Positions 1-13,619 of a DNA stretch of 18,849 nucleotides are shown here, in pieces. Position numbers and translations under genes: made by a program. The DNA is taken from contig LKUE01000381.1 of the NCBI GenBank assembly GCA_001412365.1, positions 1-18,849 on the forward strand. Direction: 5' to 3'. Every line of letters starts with the position of its first letter. The first letter of the stretch is position 1. The DNA comes from Desulfuromonas sp. SDB. GTDB lineage: Bacteria > SDB-A. The notes under the pieces were generated by a model that had not been told where the DNA came from, made no database searches, and saw only the letters and a list, made by a program, of their open reading frames with translations.

Positions 1-35
1 TCAGTGTTTTTCTGTGGTTGATATTCTTTATTCTG

Positions 36-120
36 CGGAGAGGGTGGGAGTCGAACCCACGGGACGTTGCCGTCCACGCGATTTCGAGTCGCGCTCCTTC
101 GGCCACTCGGACACCTCTCC
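36..120 (-). tRNA. tRNA-Ser, anticodon CGA
   Basis: Reading the minus strand gives a full type II tRNA cloverleaf. The 7-bp acceptor stem is GGAGAGG/CCTCTCC, the anticodon loop CTCGAAA gives CGA for the UCG codon, and a long variable arm GGACG-GCAA-CGTCC is followed by the T arm GTGGG-TTCGACT-CCCAC. The discriminator base is G at position 36, as usual for tRNA-Ser. The 3' CCA is not encoded (CAG follows), so it must be added after transcription. The 5' end lies 15 nt after the stop codon of the nitroreductase gene on the same strand, so it is probably released from the 3' end of that transcript. Confidence 0.97.
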
Positions 121-135
121 TAAATTTAACTATTC

Positions 136-1023
136 TTAAGACTCTTCCTGAAATATATCATCAAATCGGGATTTTTCCATCCAGGAAAATCCGGAATTTT
201 TAAAATTCTGTAAAAATTCCAAATTTCCCACCGGCATGCCATTAGCCTCATAGTGTAAGCCAAAAACATACTGAGTCATATTAAATCCATTTTGCTTTTT
301 TACCAGTTCAATACATCTTTCCGCTTCTTCAGGAGAAAACACATCCCGGCAACACTTTTCAAATGCTATCATTCTTTGATCATTAATTTCGATAATCCGG
401 TGATTTTCTCTTTCCTGATAAGCGTTCCATAACTCTTCCGGATCCGGATCCTGGTAAACCTCATCATGAACCATTATATCTGCAGAAAATTTCTTTGTAG
501 GTTTAGGATATTTGGTCTGGGAGTAGCCTATACTTAATAAAACAACCGGATAAACCCCCGAAGGCAGCTTGAACATATCCACCGTTTCATTATGAAATTC
601 CATAATAGTGCCAATATAACAACTGCCTAAACCATAAGCATCAGCAGCTACACATATATTCTGGGCGGCGATAATGGTATCCTGAAAAGAAATCCAAAAA
701 TGCCGGAACGATTCCCGGGCGGTATAGGGAGCATTTCCTTTTTTTGCCAGAATTTCATTTCTTCTTAAGTCCATGCAGAACAACAACAGTACCGGGGCTT
801 TAGAAATAAATTTCTGAAAAACCATTTCACCTAATTTATCTTTAACTTCCTGATTTTGAATTTTGATCACCGACCAGGGCTGTAGATTACCTCCCGAGGG
901 TCCGTGTACCGCTGCTTTGAAAATTTGATCTAAAATTTCCGGTTCAATTTCTTTTTCCGAATAATTTCTAACACTAGCCCGGTTATGGAGAATTTCAATA
1001 AGTTTGTAATTATTATCATTCAT
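136..1023 (-). CDS. Nitroreductase-family FMN oxidoreductase with C-terminal extension
   Basis: A 295-residue protein. The first ~200 residues look like the nitroreductase fold: an N-terminal R-x-S-x-R-x-Y motif (residues 15-21) and SGGNLQPW (about 43-50), typical of the FMN/substrate-binding start of the family, followed by a Gly-rich region. Such enzymes use NAD(P)H to reduce nitro compounds, quinones or enoates; the substrate here cannot be told. About 95 residues follow the usual end of the domain, with a CC pair, another Cys, and a conserved-looking FGLHYEANGMPVGN stretch that I do not recognise. I place the start at the ATG at 1023 because AGGAGA sits 6 nt upstream. Extending to 1053 would add 10 charged residues with no such site. 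The start codon overlaps the end of tadA by 8 nt, implying translational coupling. Confidence 0.85.
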   Translation of the reverse strand: MNDNNYKLIEILHNRASVRNYSEKEIEPEILDQIFKAAVHGPSGGNLQPWSVIKIQNQEVKDKLGEMVFQKFISKAPVLLLFCMDLRRNEILAKKGNAPYTARESFRHFWISFQDTIIAAQNICVAADAYGLGSCYIGTIMEFHNETVDMFKLPSGVYPVVLLSIGYSQTKYPKPTKKFSADIMVHDEVYQDPDPEELWNAYQERENHRIIEINDQRMIAFEKCCRDVFSPEEAERCIELVKKQNGFNMTQYVFGLHYEANGMPVGNLEFLQNFKNSGFSWMEKSRFDDIFQEES

Positions 1024-1501
1024 GGTTATCTCCTGATTTTTTCTGATTTTCATCTCTTCTCTCTCTGAAAAATGCCTGCATCAGTGATTTTGATTTGTCT
1101 GCCTGTATCCCTCCGATAACTGCAAGTTTATGGTTTAACTTATCTATCTGAGTGAGATTGGCTAAGGAAACACATCCCCCGAATTTCGGATCTTCGGTTC
1201 CATATACCACCAGGGAAATTCTAAACAGGACTGCTGCGCTTATACACATCAAGCAAGGTTCTAAAGTTGAATACAATATGCAGTCAGTTAAACGCCAGTT
1301 TTTTAAAGTCTGAGCAGCTGCAGTCATAGCAATCATCTCGGCATGGGCTGAAGCATCTTTTAGCAGTTCAGTTTGATTATACCCTCTGCCAATTATTTGA
1401 TGGTCCTTTACCACTACCGCTCCCACTGGAACTTCTCCCTGCTGATATGCCTTTTCAGCTAACTTCAGAGCTTGTGACATGAAGTGTTTATGATTATTCA
1501 T
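1016..1501 (-). CDS. tadA: tRNA-specific adenosine deaminase TadA
   Basis: A 161-residue cytidine/deoxycytidylate-deaminase-fold enzyme. The zinc and catalytic residues are present: HAE (His53, Glu55) and PCLMC (Cys83, Cys86), with EVPVGAVVV near the N-terminus as usual for TadA. TadA converts A34 to inosine in tRNA-Arg(ACG), so that one tRNA reads CGU, CGC and CGA. The length fits the family (about 150-170). I start at the ATG at 1501. The frame stays open further upstream, but only by reading through tRNA genes, which is spurious. There is no good Shine-Dalgarno site; the 19-nt leader is T8 plus ATCAAGTAATA. The gene lies directly after tRNA-Arg(ACG), its expected substrate, and overlaps the next gene by 8 nt. 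Free-standing cytosine or guanine deaminases are the alternative, but motif and length favour TadA. Confidence 0.92.
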   Translation of the reverse strand: MNNHKHFMSQALKLAEKAYQQGEVPVGAVVVKDHQIIGRGYNQTELLKDASAHAEMIAMTAAAQTLKNWRLTDCILYSTLEPCLMCISAAVLFRISLVVYGTEDPKFGGCVSLANLTQIDKLNHKLAVIGGIQADKSKSLMQAFFRERRDENQKKSGDNHE

Positions 1502-1520
1502 TATTACTTGATAAAAAAAA

Positions 1521-1593
1521 CGCGCCCGGTAGGAGTCGAACCTACAACCTACGGATTCGTAGTCCGGCGCTCTATCCATTGAGCCACGGGCGC
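1521..1593 (-). tRNA. tRNA-Arg, anticodon ACG
   Basis: The minus strand folds as a 73-nt tRNA. The acceptor stem is GCGCCCG/CGGGCGC, the D arm GCTC-AATGGATA-GAGC, the anticodon loop CTACGAA (anticodon ACG), and the T arm GTAGG-TTCGACT-CCTAC, with discriminator G. The anticodon stem has one mismatch at its outermost pair (C27-U43). CCA is not encoded; the 3' end runs straight into eight Ts. ACG is the anticodon whose first base is deaminated to inosine by TadA, encoded 19 nt downstream on the same strand. Only 5 nt separate it from tRNA-Lys upstream. Confidence 0.97.
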
Positions 1594-1598
1594 TTAGC

Positions 1599-1672
1599 TG
1601 CGCTGCCTGGGAATCGAACCCAGAACCCACGGATTAAGAATCCGTTGCTCTGCCTAGTTGAGCTAGCAGCGC
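1599..1672 (-). tRNA. tRNA-Lys, anticodon CTT
   Basis: A 74-nt cloverleaf on the minus strand. The acceptor stem is GCGCTGC/GCAGCGC, the anticodon stem and loop ACGGA-TTCTTAA-TCCGT (anticodon CTT, Lys AAG codon), and the T arm CTGGG-TTCGATT-CCCAG, with discriminator A. CCA is not encoded. It is the first gene of the minus-strand unit; a consensus-like promoter lies directly upstream. Confidence 0.97.
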
Positions 1673-1682
1673 TGGTGTCAAA

Positions 1683-1713
1683 ATTATCTATCAGATAAAA
1701 CTTTACCTGTCAA
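1683..1713 (-). promoter_or_regulatory. Promoter of the tRNA-tadA operon
   Basis: On the minus strand there is a perfect -35 box TTGACA (1708-1713). Downstream it offers TAGATA at 17 nt (1685-1690) or the better match GATAAT at 19 nt (1683-1688). Predicted initiation falls just before the 5' end of tRNA-Lys at 1672. The -10 region overlaps a perfect inverted repeat TTATCT-ATC-AGATAA (1684-1698), which could be an operator or simply AT-rich chance. Confidence 0.6.
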
Positions 1714-7086: not shown

Positions 7087-8556
7087 GTGGTTTTGGAACT
7101 ACCTCCCCTTCCCTATATTGCAGAGAAAGACAGCTTCCCTGTTCCCCTGCTGATTACTCCTCTCCGCAGAGAATACGATTGGCTTAACTATCCGGACTTC
7201 AGTCCGGTTAATCACTACCCCCTGTTCTTTCCCCTTAAAAATATTCTGTATCAAACCTTTATCTTCCCCGGAGAATACTGGCTGGAAGGTTTTAACCTGC
7301 AGGATCCTGCCACCGGAGCAATATGGCATGATAATTATCCGGACTTAACCGACCATCTGTACAGTTTAACTATGCAGGAAATTAATTACGGCAGCAACAG
7401 TGTTGACTACTATTATCATCCCTTGACCTATATAGGTCACAGTAGAATAGGGGAAACCGGGGAAAGATCCGAGCTTAGATTTGGCAGAAAAGTAGGAAAA
7501 AATTTTTCCGCAGTGGTGGGAGCATTGCTGATGAGGGGGACTGAATATCAAAATTACCATAATTATGAAAAACAACAGGGAATTCTGAAATTTAAATATC
7601 AACTCCACCATTTCAGCATAAGGGGAAATGTTCTTCATCAATATCTTCGCCAGGGTCATCAGGATTCATTACCGGTGATAAAAGTTTATGATCTGGGTCA
7701 AATTAATTTAACTCTTTGGCATTTTGATTTTAACTACAAGTACTATGATCTTTATCATCATGACAATCAATCACCGGTTAATACTTCAGGATGGTCACAA
7801 AAAATTCATAACTTCAACCTGGTTTTCAATGCCCTGAAAACTTCTAAACTAAATGCAGATTTATACGGAGGGGTAATTGCCCTTTTCAATTCCAACAGCA
7901 TTTACCGGTATCAGGCGGGGATAAAACTGAATTCAGAAATACTACCCCTGTTTTGGCTAAACTTAAACTCAAGTTTAAATTCAGATACGAATTACCACAT
8001 AAATTTTTCAGGGCTTTACCGTCCCCATCCCCGCTATTCATTTTACGGAGGATACCTGCTTAAAGACTATCCCTACCCGATGATTGATTCATTGACCTCT
8101 GATGAAATCCCACGGTTTAGGTCCAAAGCGTATATCGGATGCAAATATCTTTCCCCAAGATTATCTGCAGATATCGTCGCCGGTTATATATTTAAAAGCG
8201 AAAATTCTGTTTTCCAGGAAAACAGATGGGAGGATATTGACCGGGATATAAGTTACACCGCAGGAGTAAACTTAAATTTAAGCCTAACCAATCATTTGGA
8301 TTTTTACGGAATGTTTTTTAAAGAGTTAAATGAGAGTGGATATGCCTACCTTCACTACCATCATAGTTTTTTTAAAGACGATTTAACCATACACATTTTA
8401 CCGGGAGTTAGCGCCTTTAATACTGAAGAATTTGAATACTATCCCCATCTCCTGCTCAAGGCACAAATACTCTCATTTGAAATGTACTGGAGAGTAATGG
8501 TTGAAAATCAGAAGTCCAGATATGACTATGGATTTATTTGGAATATTACCAATTAA
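7087..8556 (+). CDS. Putative outer-membrane beta-barrel protein
   Basis: At least 489 residues from the GTG at 7087, the only conventional start. A longer form from an ATT at 6961 (531 residues) would have the signal peptide that this kind of protein needs. From about residue 115 onward the sequence alternates hydrophobic and polar residues in ~10-residue strands rich in Tyr, Phe and Trp, separated by short Asn/Asp/Ser turns (for example SELRFGRKVGKNFSAVVGALL and LSADIVAGYIFKSEN), which is the texture of an outer-membrane barrel. There is no TonB-box or plug domain I can recognise, so it is more likely a porin-like or assembly protein than a TonB receptor. The segment before residue ~110 is Pro- and Tyr-rich. 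It follows the NHL protein and ends 11 nt before argS. Family unrecognised; barrel assignment is inference. Confidence 0.75.
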   Translation: MVLELPPLPYIAEKDSFPVPLLITPLRREYDWLNYPDFSPVNHYPLFFPLKNILYQTFIFPGEYWLEGFNLQDPATGAIWHDNYPDLTDHLYSLTMQEINYGSNSVDYYYHPLTYIGHSRIGETGERSELRFGRKVGKNFSAVVGALLMRGTEYQNYHNYEKQQGILKFKYQLHHFSIRGNVLHQYLRQGHQDSLPVIKVYDLGQINLTLWHFDFNYKYYDLYHHDNQSPVNTSGWSQKIHNFNLVFNALKTSKLNADLYGGVIALFNSNSIYRYQAGIKLNSEILPLFWLNLNSSLNSDTNYHINFSGLYRPHPRYSFYGGYLLKDYPYPMIDSLTSDEIPRFRSKAYIGCKYLSPRLSADIVAGYIFKSENSVFQENRWEDIDRDISYTAGVNLNLSLTNHLDFYGMFFKELNESGYAYLHYHHSFFKDDLTIHILPGVSAFNTEEFEYYPHLLLKAQILSFEMYWRVMVENQKSRYDYGFIWNITN

Positions 8557-8567
8557 CGGAGAAATCT

Positions 8568-10262
8568 ATGTACGTTAAGCAATATTTATCCAAACTGATC
8601 AATCAATCCTTAAATATCCATGAATCAGAGATGGTAATCAACAATTTAGTGCCTCCTGCTCAACCTGAATGGGGAGATGTAGCTTTTAAAACATTCCAGC
8701 TGGCTTCAAAGCTAAATTTAAAGCCAGTTGAATTGGCTTTGAGTTTAGAACAGAAGCTGAACCAAAACCAGGAATTTAAAGCTAAGGCAACCGGACCCTA
8801 TTTAAACATAACCTTCTCCACCGGATTTATCTGCAATCTGGTATTAGACCATGTGTTTAACCGCCCTTCTCCTCCCCCCCCGCCTGAGCCCCAACCCACC
8901 GTGGTCATAGACTTTTCCTCTCCCAATATTGCCAAGCCCTTCGGGGTAGGTCACCTGCGCTCTACGGTTATAGGAGCAGCCCTGTATAGAATATTCAAAT
9001 ACCTCGGATACAAAGTCATCGGGATAAATCACCTGGGAGACTGGGGAACCAATTTCGGGATGATCTTGACCGGATATGAACAGGAAGGTGAAAACACCAC
9101 TCAGCTGGAACAGGATGGAATAAAATATTCCTACCAGCTGTATGTCCGCACTCACCACAAAGCGGAACAGGATCAGGAAATCAACAACCGGGCTAGGGAG
9201 TGGTTCAACAAGCTTGAACAAGGCGATCCTAAAGCAATTGAAATTTGGAAAAGATTCAGAGAATTCAGTATTAAAAAATTTAAACAGACTTATCAACGGC
9301 TGGGAATTGAATTTGATCACTATACCGGGGAAAGTTTCTATCAACATAAAACTGATGAAGCCATAGACTTCCTCCAGAAAAAAGATTTAACTGAAGTTGA
9401 CCAGGGAATGCTTATTGTACGGTTAGACCAATACGATCTTCCTCCTCTCCTGTTAAAAAAATCTGACGGCAGCACTTTATATGCAACCAGAGAAATTGCC
9501 GCGGTTTTATACCGGCTGGACACATTTAATCCGGACCTTTTGCTTTACGTGGTGGGCAACCCCCAGGAATTACACTTCAAACAGATAAGCGCTGCTCTGG
9601 ACGAAGCAGGAATCAAGATAAAAGAAAAATTGATCCATGTAAAATTTGGTCACATACTGGGAATGAGCACCCGTAAGGGAACTTTGGTATTTCTAGATGA
9701 TTTAATTGACGAGGCGGTTAGGAGAGCTAAAGAAAAGATGCAGGAAAATAAAACCATTTCCTACAGTGAAAGGGAAATGGATTTTATCTCCTCCAAAGTG
9801 GGTATCGGAGCTCTGGTGTTCAACGATTTAAAAACCAAACGGATCAAGGATATTGAATTTAACTGGGACCGGGCATTGTCATTTGAGGGGGAAAGCGGTC
9901 CTTATCTGCAGTATGCCCATGCCAGAATAAAATCAATTATTCGAAAGTCCAGTCAAATTCCCCGCTACCAGCCAGATTCCGTCCTTGACCAGCTAAATCA
10001 ACCGGAAGAGAAGGCGTTAGCTTTAGCTATCAGTGATTTCCCCATGATTATTGAACAAGCCGCCAGGGAATACGAGCCTTCGGTTATCTCAAGATATTTG
10101 CTTGATTTAGCCTCAACCTTCAGCAAGTTTTACCACTCCTGTCAGGTGGTGGGAAGCAAACCAGAACTGCTTGAAGCCAGATTGTGTTTAATCGAAGGAT
10201 GCCGGATAACTTTAGCCAAGGGGCTGGAGTTACTGGGAATTGAACCTCTAAATAAAATGTAA
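8568..10262 (+). CDS. argS: Arginyl-tRNA synthetase
   Basis: A 564-residue class I synthetase that charges tRNA-Arg with arginine using ATP. The order is N-terminal additional domain (NNLVPPAQPEWGDVAF), catalytic Rossmann fold with HIGH-type motif GVGH (126-129) within SSPNIAKPFGVGHLRST, KMSK-type motif MSTRKG (366-371), and a C-terminal DALR anticodon-binding domain introduced by GESGPYLQYAHARI (~441). The length is normal. I start at the ATG at 8568 because GGAG (8558-8561) is 6 nt upstream. The in-frame ATG at 8538 lies inside the previous gene without a ribosome site. The stop overlaps the next ATG by one base (TAATG). The first His of HIGH is Gly here, a substitution tolerated in many ArgS proteins. 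Confidence 0.97.
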   Translation: MYVKQYLSKLINQSLNIHESEMVINNLVPPAQPEWGDVAFKTFQLASKLNLKPVELALSLEQKLNQNQEFKAKATGPYLNITFSTGFICNLVLDHVFNRPSPPPPPEPQPTVVIDFSSPNIAKPFGVGHLRSTVIGAALYRIFKYLGYKVIGINHLGDWGTNFGMILTGYEQEGENTTQLEQDGIKYSYQLYVRTHHKAEQDQEINNRAREWFNKLEQGDPKAIEIWKRFREFSIKKFKQTYQRLGIEFDHYTGESFYQHKTDEAIDFLQKKDLTEVDQGMLIVRLDQYDLPPLLLKKSDGSTLYATREIAAVLYRLDTFNPDLLLYVVGNPQELHFKQISAALDEAGIKIKEKLIHVKFGHILGMSTRKGTLVFLDDLIDEAVRRAKEKMQENKTISYSEREMDFISSKVGIGALVFNDLKTKRIKDIEFNWDRALSFEGESGPYLQYAHARIKSIIRKSSQIPRYQPDSVLDQLNQPEEKALALAISDFPMIIEQAAREYEPSVISRYLLDLASTFSKFYHSCQVVGSKPELLEARLCLIEGCRITLAKGLELLGIEPLNKM

Positions 10263-10719: not shown

Positions 10720-12342
10720 GTGGTAATCTCATTAGATATTGGAACATCTTTAACCAAATGTCTGGCATTAGATGAAGAACAGGGATATTTGGACAGGTTA
10801 ATCATACCCACTGATCCAAATTTAAATTTGCAAAATTCCTTTTCCCAGATATTAACTTTACTGGAAACTAAATCCGGAAGGAAAATTTTCAGGGGCAATC
10901 GTTGTATTTATCCAATTTTTGCATGTACCTCTATAAAGGGGGGGCTGAGAGTTGCCAGTGTCAGCAGTTTGTATAATACTGCAGGAAGAATTGCCGAATT
11001 AGCAGTGTCCTATTCCGGAGGTAACTTGGTCTGTCAAATATCTACTGATCAAGATTTGCTTTTTTCCGAAAAAGTTTTAAAACTGGTAAAAGCTCAACCT
11101 GATTTGATTATAATCAGCGGTGGCTGCGAAGAAGGTTCAAATAAATCAGTGGTGGATATTGTAAAAGTGGTGGCTACCGCCATTCCCCTAATTAACCCTA
11201 CCGGTTCCTTGCCGGTTATCTACGCCGGAAACAGTTTTATTCAAACTGAAGTAAGTTCCCTGCTGGAGAGTATTTCTAAATTTAAAATATCTTCCAATAT
11301 TATACCGGAAGAAGGACAACAGGATATCTATCCTGCAATCAGTGAAATTAGAGATTCCTTTACCGATATATACTTGGGAAATAGAGAAAAATGGAAAATG
11401 CTATACCAAAATCTCTCTGAACCAATAGTGCCTACCTCTTTTTGTTTTTTGAAATCAGTGGAAACATTAAATATATCAGCTAATGCATTGTTTATTGATG
11501 TTGGCAGTTATTCCACCGATTTAATCATCGCTGAACAAAAGCAGCCTCAAAATTATTATTTACATAGATTTAATAAATTAGAAGGAGTGGGCAGTTCTTT
11601 AAATTCAAAATTTAGTTTTCAGGAATTAGATGAAATATTAACCTGGACAACTTATCCCTTAAACCGGTCAATTTTAATGGATATAATTGATAAAAGGAGA
11701 GGGATTGCCTCAAGCAGTCCGGTTAATGATCAGGAGCTGGATTTCTTACATTGTATCGCCAGAGATTTAATTGGAAATTTGTACAAAAAATTTGTTGATA
11801 AAAAACAAAAATTTTTCTTAAGAGAAATATATCTTCTTTCAATACTATTTAAATTTTCTCCAATTTCAAAAGACCTGTTCACTGTGCTCAATGCCATTCA
11901 GCCCTCCGGTATAGTTGATATTTACTTAACTGATTGTTTTTGGGCTAATTACGGTTTGCTAAATTTTTATAATCTTCAGACCAACACTCATTTCAACAAA
12001 AAACTGCTGGCTACGGTAATCTCCCCGCTTTTCAGCGATAAATCCCGGGGATCTAAGGTGGCAGATGTAGTTATTCAAACTCCGGGAAGGACCTATCAGG
12101 ACAACATCAGGGCAGGTGAATTCCGCATGTCCCCAGTTCAAGCATCGCAAGGAGAAATAATTGTCCTGCCGGTCAGAGGAGTGGACGGAGGAGAAGGCAA
12201 TGGAAAACCAGTGTATTCTAGCTTAAAACCCTCTGAATCCGGTTTGATATTTGACGGAAGAATAAAACCAATTACCCCTGAATTCTATCAGGAACACTGG
12301 GAAGAATATCTCAATCTTTGGCAAAAGGTATTAACCGCATAA
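10720..12342 (+). CDS. Glutamate-mutase-L (MutL/GlmL)-like ASKHA ATPase
   Basis: A 540-residue protein with the actin/Hsp70-like nucleotide-binding signatures: phosphate 1 SLDIGTSLTK (4-13) and phosphate 2 FIDVGSYSTDLI (258-269). Between them are CTSIKGGLRVASV (69-81) and PDLIIISGGCEEGSNKSVVDIVK, which resemble the SSAxGGLrM and llaGGtdgGnkE blocks of the GlmL family. GlmL-type proteins are ATPases linked with B12-dependent mutases, but no mutase gene lies nearby. After ~420 an extra C-terminal domain follows (GEF...LPVRGVDGGEGNG...GLIFDGRIKPI at 508-518), which I recall from GlmL-like proteins of Chloroflexi. The start is GTG, with no ribosome site, under a promoter whose start site coincides with it. 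The stop overlaps the next ATG (TAATG). This is not the mismatch-repair MutL. Exact role unknown. Confidence 0.8.
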   Translation: MVISLDIGTSLTKCLALDEEQGYLDRLIIPTDPNLNLQNSFSQILTLLETKSGRKIFRGNRCIYPIFACTSIKGGLRVASVSSLYNTAGRIAELAVSYSGGNLVCQISTDQDLLFSEKVLKLVKAQPDLIIISGGCEEGSNKSVVDIVKVVATAIPLINPTGSLPVIYAGNSFIQTEVSSLLESISKFKISSNIIPEEGQQDIYPAISEIRDSFTDIYLGNREKWKMLYQNLSEPIVPTSFCFLKSVETLNISANALFIDVGSYSTDLIIAEQKQPQNYYLHRFNKLEGVGSSLNSKFSFQELDEILTWTTYPLNRSILMDIIDKRRGIASSSPVNDQELDFLHCIARDLIGNLYKKFVDKKQKFFLREIYLLSILFKFSPISKDLFTVLNAIQPSGIVDIYLTDCFWANYGLLNFYNLQTNTHFNKKLLATVISPLFSDKSRGSKVADVVIQTPGRTYQDNIRAGEFRMSPVQASQGEIIVLPVRGVDGGEGNGKPVYSSLKPSESGLIFDGRIKPITPEFYQEHWEEYLNLWQKVLTA

Positions 12343-13619
12343 TGAATTCAAGATTTATAATATTTGATTATTTTCAGTACAAATTAATTTCTCCTTTCAG
12401 TTCCCGGTCCTGTGTAGAACCTGGAGAAAATGTTGATTTTGGCGATCTGGTGTTTGAAAGATATTATCCTCAGAAAAATTTTTTATTTGATTTAGGATCT
12501 TACTTGGGAACCAATAATCCTGAAATTATCGAAAAAAACCTTAAAATCGGATGCAATCAATCAATTCCTCTTTACTCAAATTTTTCCTCAACAGATAACC
12601 TTCCTCCTGGAGTTAAACCGTTATCTCCGTTTAACGGAAAGATATTGAAATTAGTTTATCCTTATGGATTATCAGTAGCACAAAAAAACAATGAACAGAA
12701 TATAGTTATCAATGTATCCGATCCTTTAGGGGTTTCCCCCCATCAAATATCTAAATTCTTATTGGTAAAAAAGGGTGAATGTATCAACAGGGGAACCAAG
12801 CTGGCTGCCCGAACCTTAAATGATGATTTAACTGAGCTCACTGCGGTAAGTCCTTTTGATGGAGAAGTTATCAGCATTGATAAAAAAAGTGGAAATATTA
12901 TCATAAAAAAAATATTTCAGGAACAGTCAGTTAAAGCTTTGATTCCCGGTCAAGTGATGTCTTTGCAGGAGACTCCACTGGGCAGTTCTGCAACCATTGT
13001 TTCCGCAGGGATATTAATCAAGGGATTGACTGGATTTGGTTCAGCCTGCAAAGGGCATATAGAATTAATTGAATCAAACTTTGATCAAAATATTGATAGA
13101 TTTCAATCAACCCGATTGTCAAACTCCATCGTAGTACTCAACGGCATCCCCGGCGAATCTGTAATTGAAAAATTGATAAAAGCAGGAGTACAAGGAATGG
13201 TTATCCCTTCAATAACTCCACCTGAATTGAGATCTAGTGTAATTAAATACAAAAATAAATTAAGCATTTTAGGATTATTTTGGTCTAAAATTGAACGTCT
13301 TCCGGAAAATGTATTGAATTTCTTTAAGTTTAGAATTGCCCAGTGGGCAATTTTATCCGTTGAAACCAGCCAGTTTAATAACACCTTGTTTATCCCCACT
13401 CCCCTGCCTCCTACTATCCAGTATGAGGATTATCTTCCCTCGCCGGGATCAGAAGTAATAATTTTATCCGGAAAATATAAAAATAAAATTGGAAAATTGC
13501 AGTCAATACAACATCATTTGGCAGACCAGGGAAAAACTGCCTATATCCCCAAAGCACTGATAAAACTAAAAGGTATTGATGAAACAGTCAATGTCCCCAT
13601 TAATAACATTTATTACTGA
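12342..13619 (+). CDS. Barrel-sandwich (RnfC-like) and KOW-domain protein, partner of the GlmL-like ATPase
   Basis: A 425-residue cytoplasmic-looking protein with no signal or membrane segment. The N-terminal part has LISPFSSRSCVEPGENVDFGDLV and two SPF-[ND]-G-x-[IV] hairpins (SPFNG 95-99; SPFDG 170-174), resembling the biotinyl/lipoyl-type barrel-sandwich fold seen in RnfC and related proteins, but with no MKM lysine for attaching a cofactor. A middle region (~215-300) includes GITGFGSACKGHIEL-like and GVQGMVIPSITPPEL-like stretches. The C-terminal segment from SPGSEVIILSGKYKNKIGKL (367-386) to VNVPINNIYY matches a KOW/SH3-like domain. The start is the ATG at 12342, sharing one base with the previous stop. 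The TTG at 12318 has no ribosome site. The tight coupling to the ATPase suggests the two proteins work as a pair; function unknown. Confidence 0.78.
   Translation: MNSRFIIFDYFQYKLISPFSSRSCVEPGENVDFGDLVFERYYPQKNFLFDLGSYLGTNNPEIIEKNLKIGCNQSIPLYSNFSSTDNLPPGVKPLSPFNGKILKLVYPYGLSVAQKNNEQNIVINVSDPLGVSPHQISKFLLVKKGECINRGTKLAARTLNDDLTELTAVSPFDGEVISIDKKSGNIIIKKIFQEQSVKALIPGQVMSLQETPLGSSATIVSAGILIKGLTGFGSACKGHIELIESNFDQNIDRFQSTRLSNSIVVLNGIPGESVIEKLIKAGVQGMVIPSITPPELRSSVIKYKNKLSILGLFWSKIERLPENVLNFFKFRIAQWAILSVETSQFNNTLFIPTPLPPTIQYEDYLPSPGSEVIILSGKYKNKIGKLQSIQHHLADQGKTAYIPKALIKLKGIDETVNVPINNIYY

Follow-up and report, generated by a model that had tools for sequence, protein, structure and literature searches.

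A gene for tRNA-Arg(ACG) standing immediately ahead of tadA, which encodes the enzyme that modifies this tRNA, raises the question of whether substrate and enzyme are made from one transcript and whether the tRNA also controls its enzyme. TadA forms inosine at position 34 (I34) of tRNA-Arg(ACG), its substrate, and in most bacteria acts on essentially one tRNA. The window, as we call the whole 18,849-nucleotide stretch analysed here, is contig C381 of a genome of 3.1 Mb. A sequence-only reading of it had placed the end of tRNA-Arg(ACG) 19 nt ahead of the tadA ATG on the shared strand, and this is borne out by ARAGORN, Rfam and profile searches. That reading was right about tRNA-Arg and tadA but missed a tRNA-Lys, a nitroreductase gene and tRNA-Ser(CGA), all likewise on the minus strand (Table 1). 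Here a promoter-like element is followed by tRNA-Lys(CTT), 5 nt, tRNA-Arg(ACG), 19 nt and tadA, after which the nitroreductase gene starts with an 8-nt overlap and tRNA-Ser(CGA) follows 15 nt past its stop; the contig ends 34 nt further on. The neighbouring operon, from 1738, has the opposite orientation.

Table 1. Features of the tadA unit in the window
Feature	Position	Strand	Basis
Promoter-like element: TTGACA 1713-1708, 17-nt spacer GGTAAAGTTTTATCTGA, TAGATA 1690-1685	1685..1713	-	Conserved across the family; putative promoter function
tRNA-Lys(CTT), heads the unit	1599..1672	-	ARAGORN; Rfam 66.6 bits
tRNA-Arg(ACG), TadA substrate, without encoded CCA	1521..1593	-	ARAGORN; Rfam 69 bits
tRNA-Arg(ACG)-tadA gap, 19 nt, TTTTTTTTATCAAGTAATA	1502..1520	-	Sequence
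tadA, tRNA adenosine(34) deaminase, 161 aa, ATG 1501, stop ends 1016	1016..1501	-	NF008113; PF14437; PF00383
Nitroreductase-family gene, 295 aa	136..1023	-	PF00881 88.4 bits
tRNA-Ser(CGA)	35..120	-	ARAGORN; tRNA match in whole-genome scan

The protein is TadA by profile and motifs: it scores 155.5 bits against NF008113 ('tRNA adenosine(34) deaminase TadA'), above the cut-off of 150, and its translation holds both zinc-site motifs, HAE (in SAHAEMIAM) and PCxxC (in EPCLMC); inosine-forming activity on tRNA-Arg(ACG) is predicted. The reading frame stays open beyond the ATG and across the tRNA gene as far as a GTG at 1630, but the domain match begins at the third residue of the protein read from the ATG. 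A cloverleaf fold was obtained for tRNA-Arg(ACG) itself (1593-1521). The gap opens with eight T directly behind this tRNA and contains no match to a Shine-Dalgarno (SD) sequence (anti-SD pairing, -0.2 kcal/mol).

Where the unit might be transcribed from was addressed by a consensus scan and by comparing four genomes of the family: the window's own, G001 (from another genus), G002 and G003. The earlier statement that no promoter fits into the gap is a fair one for 19 nt, and the scan finds none there. Nor does the scan report a minus-strand promoter-like site anywhere in 1500-1860, where its -10 rule also misses what is likely the real promoter. The first 22 nt of the element ahead of tRNA-Lys (1713-1692; TTGACA and most of the spacer) read TTGACAGGTAAAG[T/G]TTTATCTG, with one variable position. 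All four genomes carry this stretch ahead of tRNA-Lys, with 21 of 22 positions kept in an alignment and diverged flanks, and nowhere else in them does it match exactly. Elsewhere in the family, tRNA promoters (Gly(GCC), elongator-type CAU tRNAs and others) keep TTGACA and the -10 but not the spacer, whereas here 15 of 16 spacer positions are conserved, which argues that this spacer is under extra constraint. tRNA-Arg(CCG) was dropped as a promoter control, its upstream region looking coding, and other tRNAs were used instead. The spacer is loosely palindromic (AGgTAAA..TTTAtCT), as would suit an operator. The -10 hexamers are poor in two of the four genomes. We take the conserved element to be the putative promoter of the unit.

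The sequence-only reading had proposed a search for the same order in relatives, and the order is indeed kept, both in the sole assembled locus of the family and in 43 loci from 32 families of the wider survey described below. The family locus, in G001, runs tRNA-Lys, tRNA-Arg(ACG), tadA and then a Ser-like tRNA cut by the contig end. tadA was not found in G002 and G003, where the contigs (L249, G002:C89; L250, G003:C22) break inside tRNA-Lys at the identical base; loss of the gene was rejected as an explanation, since the block falls into the assembly gap. Short-read assemblies readily lose a short, tRNA-flanked tadA contig, and the gap may then mimic gene loss; the G001 contig likewise ends inside the tRNA behind tadA. 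A DNA search of the family genomes returned no second close copy of tRNA-Arg(ACG) among the typed hits, the nearest of which were Arg(CCG) and a CAU tRNA, and one 80% match (C296) was untyped.

We surveyed 157 tadA loci, one per genome, from 122 bacterial families, identified by profile search with tRNAs called by ARAGORN; the upper half of the matches by score supplied most of the loci, which makes the percentages rough. On the strand of tadA, the closest tRNA up to 300 nt upstream is Arg(ACG) in 43 of 157 loci (32 of 122 families), and other tRNAs take this place in only five (Arg(CCT) 2, Arg(CCG) 2, Ser(GCT) 1). Arg(ACG) thus accounts for 43 of the 48 loci with a same-strand upstream tRNA; the remaining 109 have none. 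Downstream, the nearest tRNA is Ser(CGA) in 64 loci, Ser(GGA) in 11, Ser(GCT) in one and an Ala tRNA in one, which puts a tRNA-Ser behind tadA in 76 of 157. Both flanks, Arg(ACG) ahead and Ser behind, occur together in 34 loci from 25 families, an association with a Fisher p of 2e-6 on raw loci for which the TadA tree gives only four supported independent pairs. Opposite-strand tRNAs near tadA are rare (two upstream, two downstream). In a second set of 80 close tadA matches, rich in Pseudomonadota and Bacteroidota, Arg(ACG) is upstream only at a Caldithrix locus (L200). The order is therefore common in some lineages and absent from many; the adjacency is a widespread gene order and probably of ancient origin. 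The distance from tRNA-Arg to the first tadA ATG has a median of 32 nt and falls to 6-9 nt in seven loci, gaps that are too short to hold a promoter.

The pair often belongs to a larger block. SRP RNA lies behind tadA and tRNA-Ser in 9 of the 20 loci checked, L016 and L200 run on into dnaX, and L008 starts with serS (dnaX and serS confirmed by profile). In the window, tRNA-Arg(ACG) directly precedes tadA and tRNA-Ser comes after it, with the nitroreductase gene inserted in between; no SRP RNA was found within the window, whose contig stops shortly past tRNA-Ser. The unit is best explained as the local version of a block comprising (tRNA-Ser), tRNA-Arg(ACG), tadA, tRNA-Ser, SRP RNA and dnaX. 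In Bacillus subtilis the neighbourhood of tadA (yaaJ) reads yaaJ-scr-dnaX-yaaK-recR (PMC10454642). L016 and L200 resemble it in having tadA beside SRP RNA and dnaX, whereas within the window's contig tadA has neither as a neighbour. The paper on the B. subtilis region makes no mention of a tRNA-Arg beside yaaJ (PMC10454642). In the block described here tRNA-Arg(ACG) is fixed ahead of tadA.

We consider it probable, with good confidence, that Lys-Arg(ACG)-tadA-nitroreductase-Ser(CGA) forms one tRNA-led transcription unit, with its promoter upstream of tRNA-Lys and its mRNA freed by tRNA processing. Transcription would start ahead of tRNA-Lys and run through tRNA-Ser(CGA); the tRNAs would then be released by RNase P together with the nucleases that act on tRNA 3' ends, leaving the segment between tRNA-Arg and tRNA-Ser as the message that encodes both TadA and the nitroreductase. 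Co-transcription of tRNA-Arg(ACG) and tadA, already proposed in the sequence-only reading, is very likely and well supported by indirect evidence, namely the short same-strand gap, a promoter-like element only ahead of the tRNA pair and the recurrent order. It may also fairly be inferred that tRNA processing sets the 5' end of the tadA mRNA. The shared transcript would roughly couple TadA output to transcription of its substrate, as an effect of dosage.

Such a mechanism is likely, and it is of a known and ordinary kind. For the E. coli tufB operon (thrU-tyrU-glyT-thrT-tufB), Lee et al. (1981, as cited in PMC5371648) reported that the protein gene shares a transcript with the four tRNA genes. 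The window unit likewise has its tRNAs and mRNA on one strand with no promoter found between them, the tRNA genes leading and the mRNA for a tRNA-acting protein coming behind them. The two differ in that EF-Tu binds nearly all tRNAs, whereas the essentially single substrate of TadA is the adjacent tRNA, and in that co-transcription is here supported by indirect evidence. In the selC and pylT operons tRNA-Sec and tRNA-Pyl lie beside the genes that charge or convert them, so that, as in the window pair, a tRNA is encoded together with its dedicated enzyme; those operons serve special amino acids, whereas the window pairs a standard decoding tRNA with a wobble-base editor. In animal mitochondria, tRNAs punctuate the transcripts, and mRNAs bounded by tRNAs are freed by processing. 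The window mRNA would similarly have a tRNA at both ends, but in a bacterial operon with its own putative promoter and with processing that is presumed.

A less probable, though quite possible, account is that the genes are a relic of an ancient translation-gene cluster, without mutual effect beyond compact packing and with tadA often served by its own promoter. tRNA-Ser, SRP RNA and dnaX share the block without any substrate relation, and the genes downstream of B. subtilis yaaJ (scr-dnaX-yaaK-recR) have their own promoters (PMC10454642). Terminators in some tRNA-Arg-tadA gaps point the same way: a scan finds a terminator-like hairpin in 7 of 47 gaps, about five of them convincing, and in those lineages tadA needs read-through or a second promoter or start. 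Such terminators could be sites where read-through is controlled. In the window, the eight T behind tRNA-Arg could be a weak terminator, which counts against a single transcript. Against the relic account, however, the upstream position is nearly exclusive to Arg(ACG), the gaps are often below promoter size, and the conserved promoter-like element of the window's family stands only before the tRNAs. The tRNA-Arg(ACG)-tadA gap holds a hairpin with a T run that resembles an intrinsic terminator in L069, L070, L060, L093 and L141.

We think it unlikely that expression is gated by the substrate, such that folding or 3' cleavage of tRNA-Arg decides tadA translation, or unmodified tRNA-Arg feeds back, and TadA tracks the need for inosine. 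Equally doubtful is the fuller version, in which such gating and a regulator at the conserved spacer of the promoter jointly set tadA translation, and many families have kept the pair for the sake of this coupling. The specificity of the upstream tRNA (43 of 48) favours gating, and with gaps of 6-9 nt the tadA mRNA would be almost leaderless after tRNA 3' cleavage, a suggestive point that falls short of being decisive; the window gap lacks a ribosome-binding site. The best anti-SD energy over the candidate starts has a median of -2.9 at gaps of up to 40 nt versus -4.8 in loci that lack an upstream tRNA (p = 0.009), but the difference disappears if the first ATG alone is considered (p = 0.90), and shorter gaps offer fewer candidate starts. 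Since the comparison depends on the choice of start codon, we make no claim that loci with an adjacent tRNA are marked by weak ribosome-binding sites. Moreover, the gap in G001, another member of the family, contains a good SD (-11.3), and the window tadA has one CGN among its six arginine codons and hence no obvious codon sensor. tadA is also linked still more often to tRNA-Ser (76 loci), which TadA does not modify.

A similar link in another enzyme speaks against gating as well. A same-strand CAU tRNA lies upstream of tilS in 12 of 59 loci (L279, L281, L282, L290, L292, L301, L340, L342, L344, L348, L356 and L362). The substrate of TilS is tRNA-Ile2, and elongator tRNA-Met is the look-alike that it must avoid. 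The acceptor stems of these CAU tRNAs are mostly GGCGG..., like elongator tRNA-Met, and three are initiator-like; judged by sequence they look like tRNA-Met, not tRNA-Ile2. The idea that wobble enzymes with a single substrate tRNA are generally encoded behind that tRNA is accordingly not supported. The tadA/tRNA-Ser and tilS/tRNA-Met links indicate that a tRNA-enzyme gene neighbourhood can be conserved without a substrate relation. The proposal that enzyme supply is tied to substrate supply is thus supported as far as shared transcription goes, but not as a control loop, given the equal link to tRNA-Ser, the similar tilS/tRNA-Met link and the intrinsic terminator that a few relatives have in the tRNA-Arg-tadA gap. 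Any regulatory link between substrate and enzyme beyond shared transcription is unproven, as is a dedicated feedback, which no finding demands.

Chance adjacency in a tRNA-rich spot of one genome has virtually no probability left: the three tRNAs that ARAGORN places within 1.7 kb would favour it, but the survey refutes it, the pairing recurring in 32 families, the control gene trmD, for a general tRNA methyltransferase, having a tRNA nearby in just one of 30 loci and never within 300 nt upstream, and one tRNA-Arg(ACG) among some thousands of genes being expected ahead of tadA in well under 1 in 1,000 genomes.

Our literature search covered open-access full text and turned up no account of tRNA-Arg(ACG)-tadA as a conserved order; as a conserved gene order, we regard the recurrent pairing of substrate and enzyme genes as moderately new. 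Databases of gene neighbourhoods that rest on proteins only would miss it. That about a quarter of the sampled families place the enzyme gene behind the gene of the substrate tRNA offers a concrete, testable place to study tadA regulation. Elsewhere in the window, the plus strand at 10720-13619 carries a GlmL-like gene, with a weak, below-cut-off match to methylaspartate mutase accessory protein; the gene behind it has no match in NCBIfam. The window also encodes an arginine--tRNA ligase, argS (8538-10262, plus strand; TIGR00456, 483 bits), 7 kb from the tadA unit in an oppositely oriented gene group.
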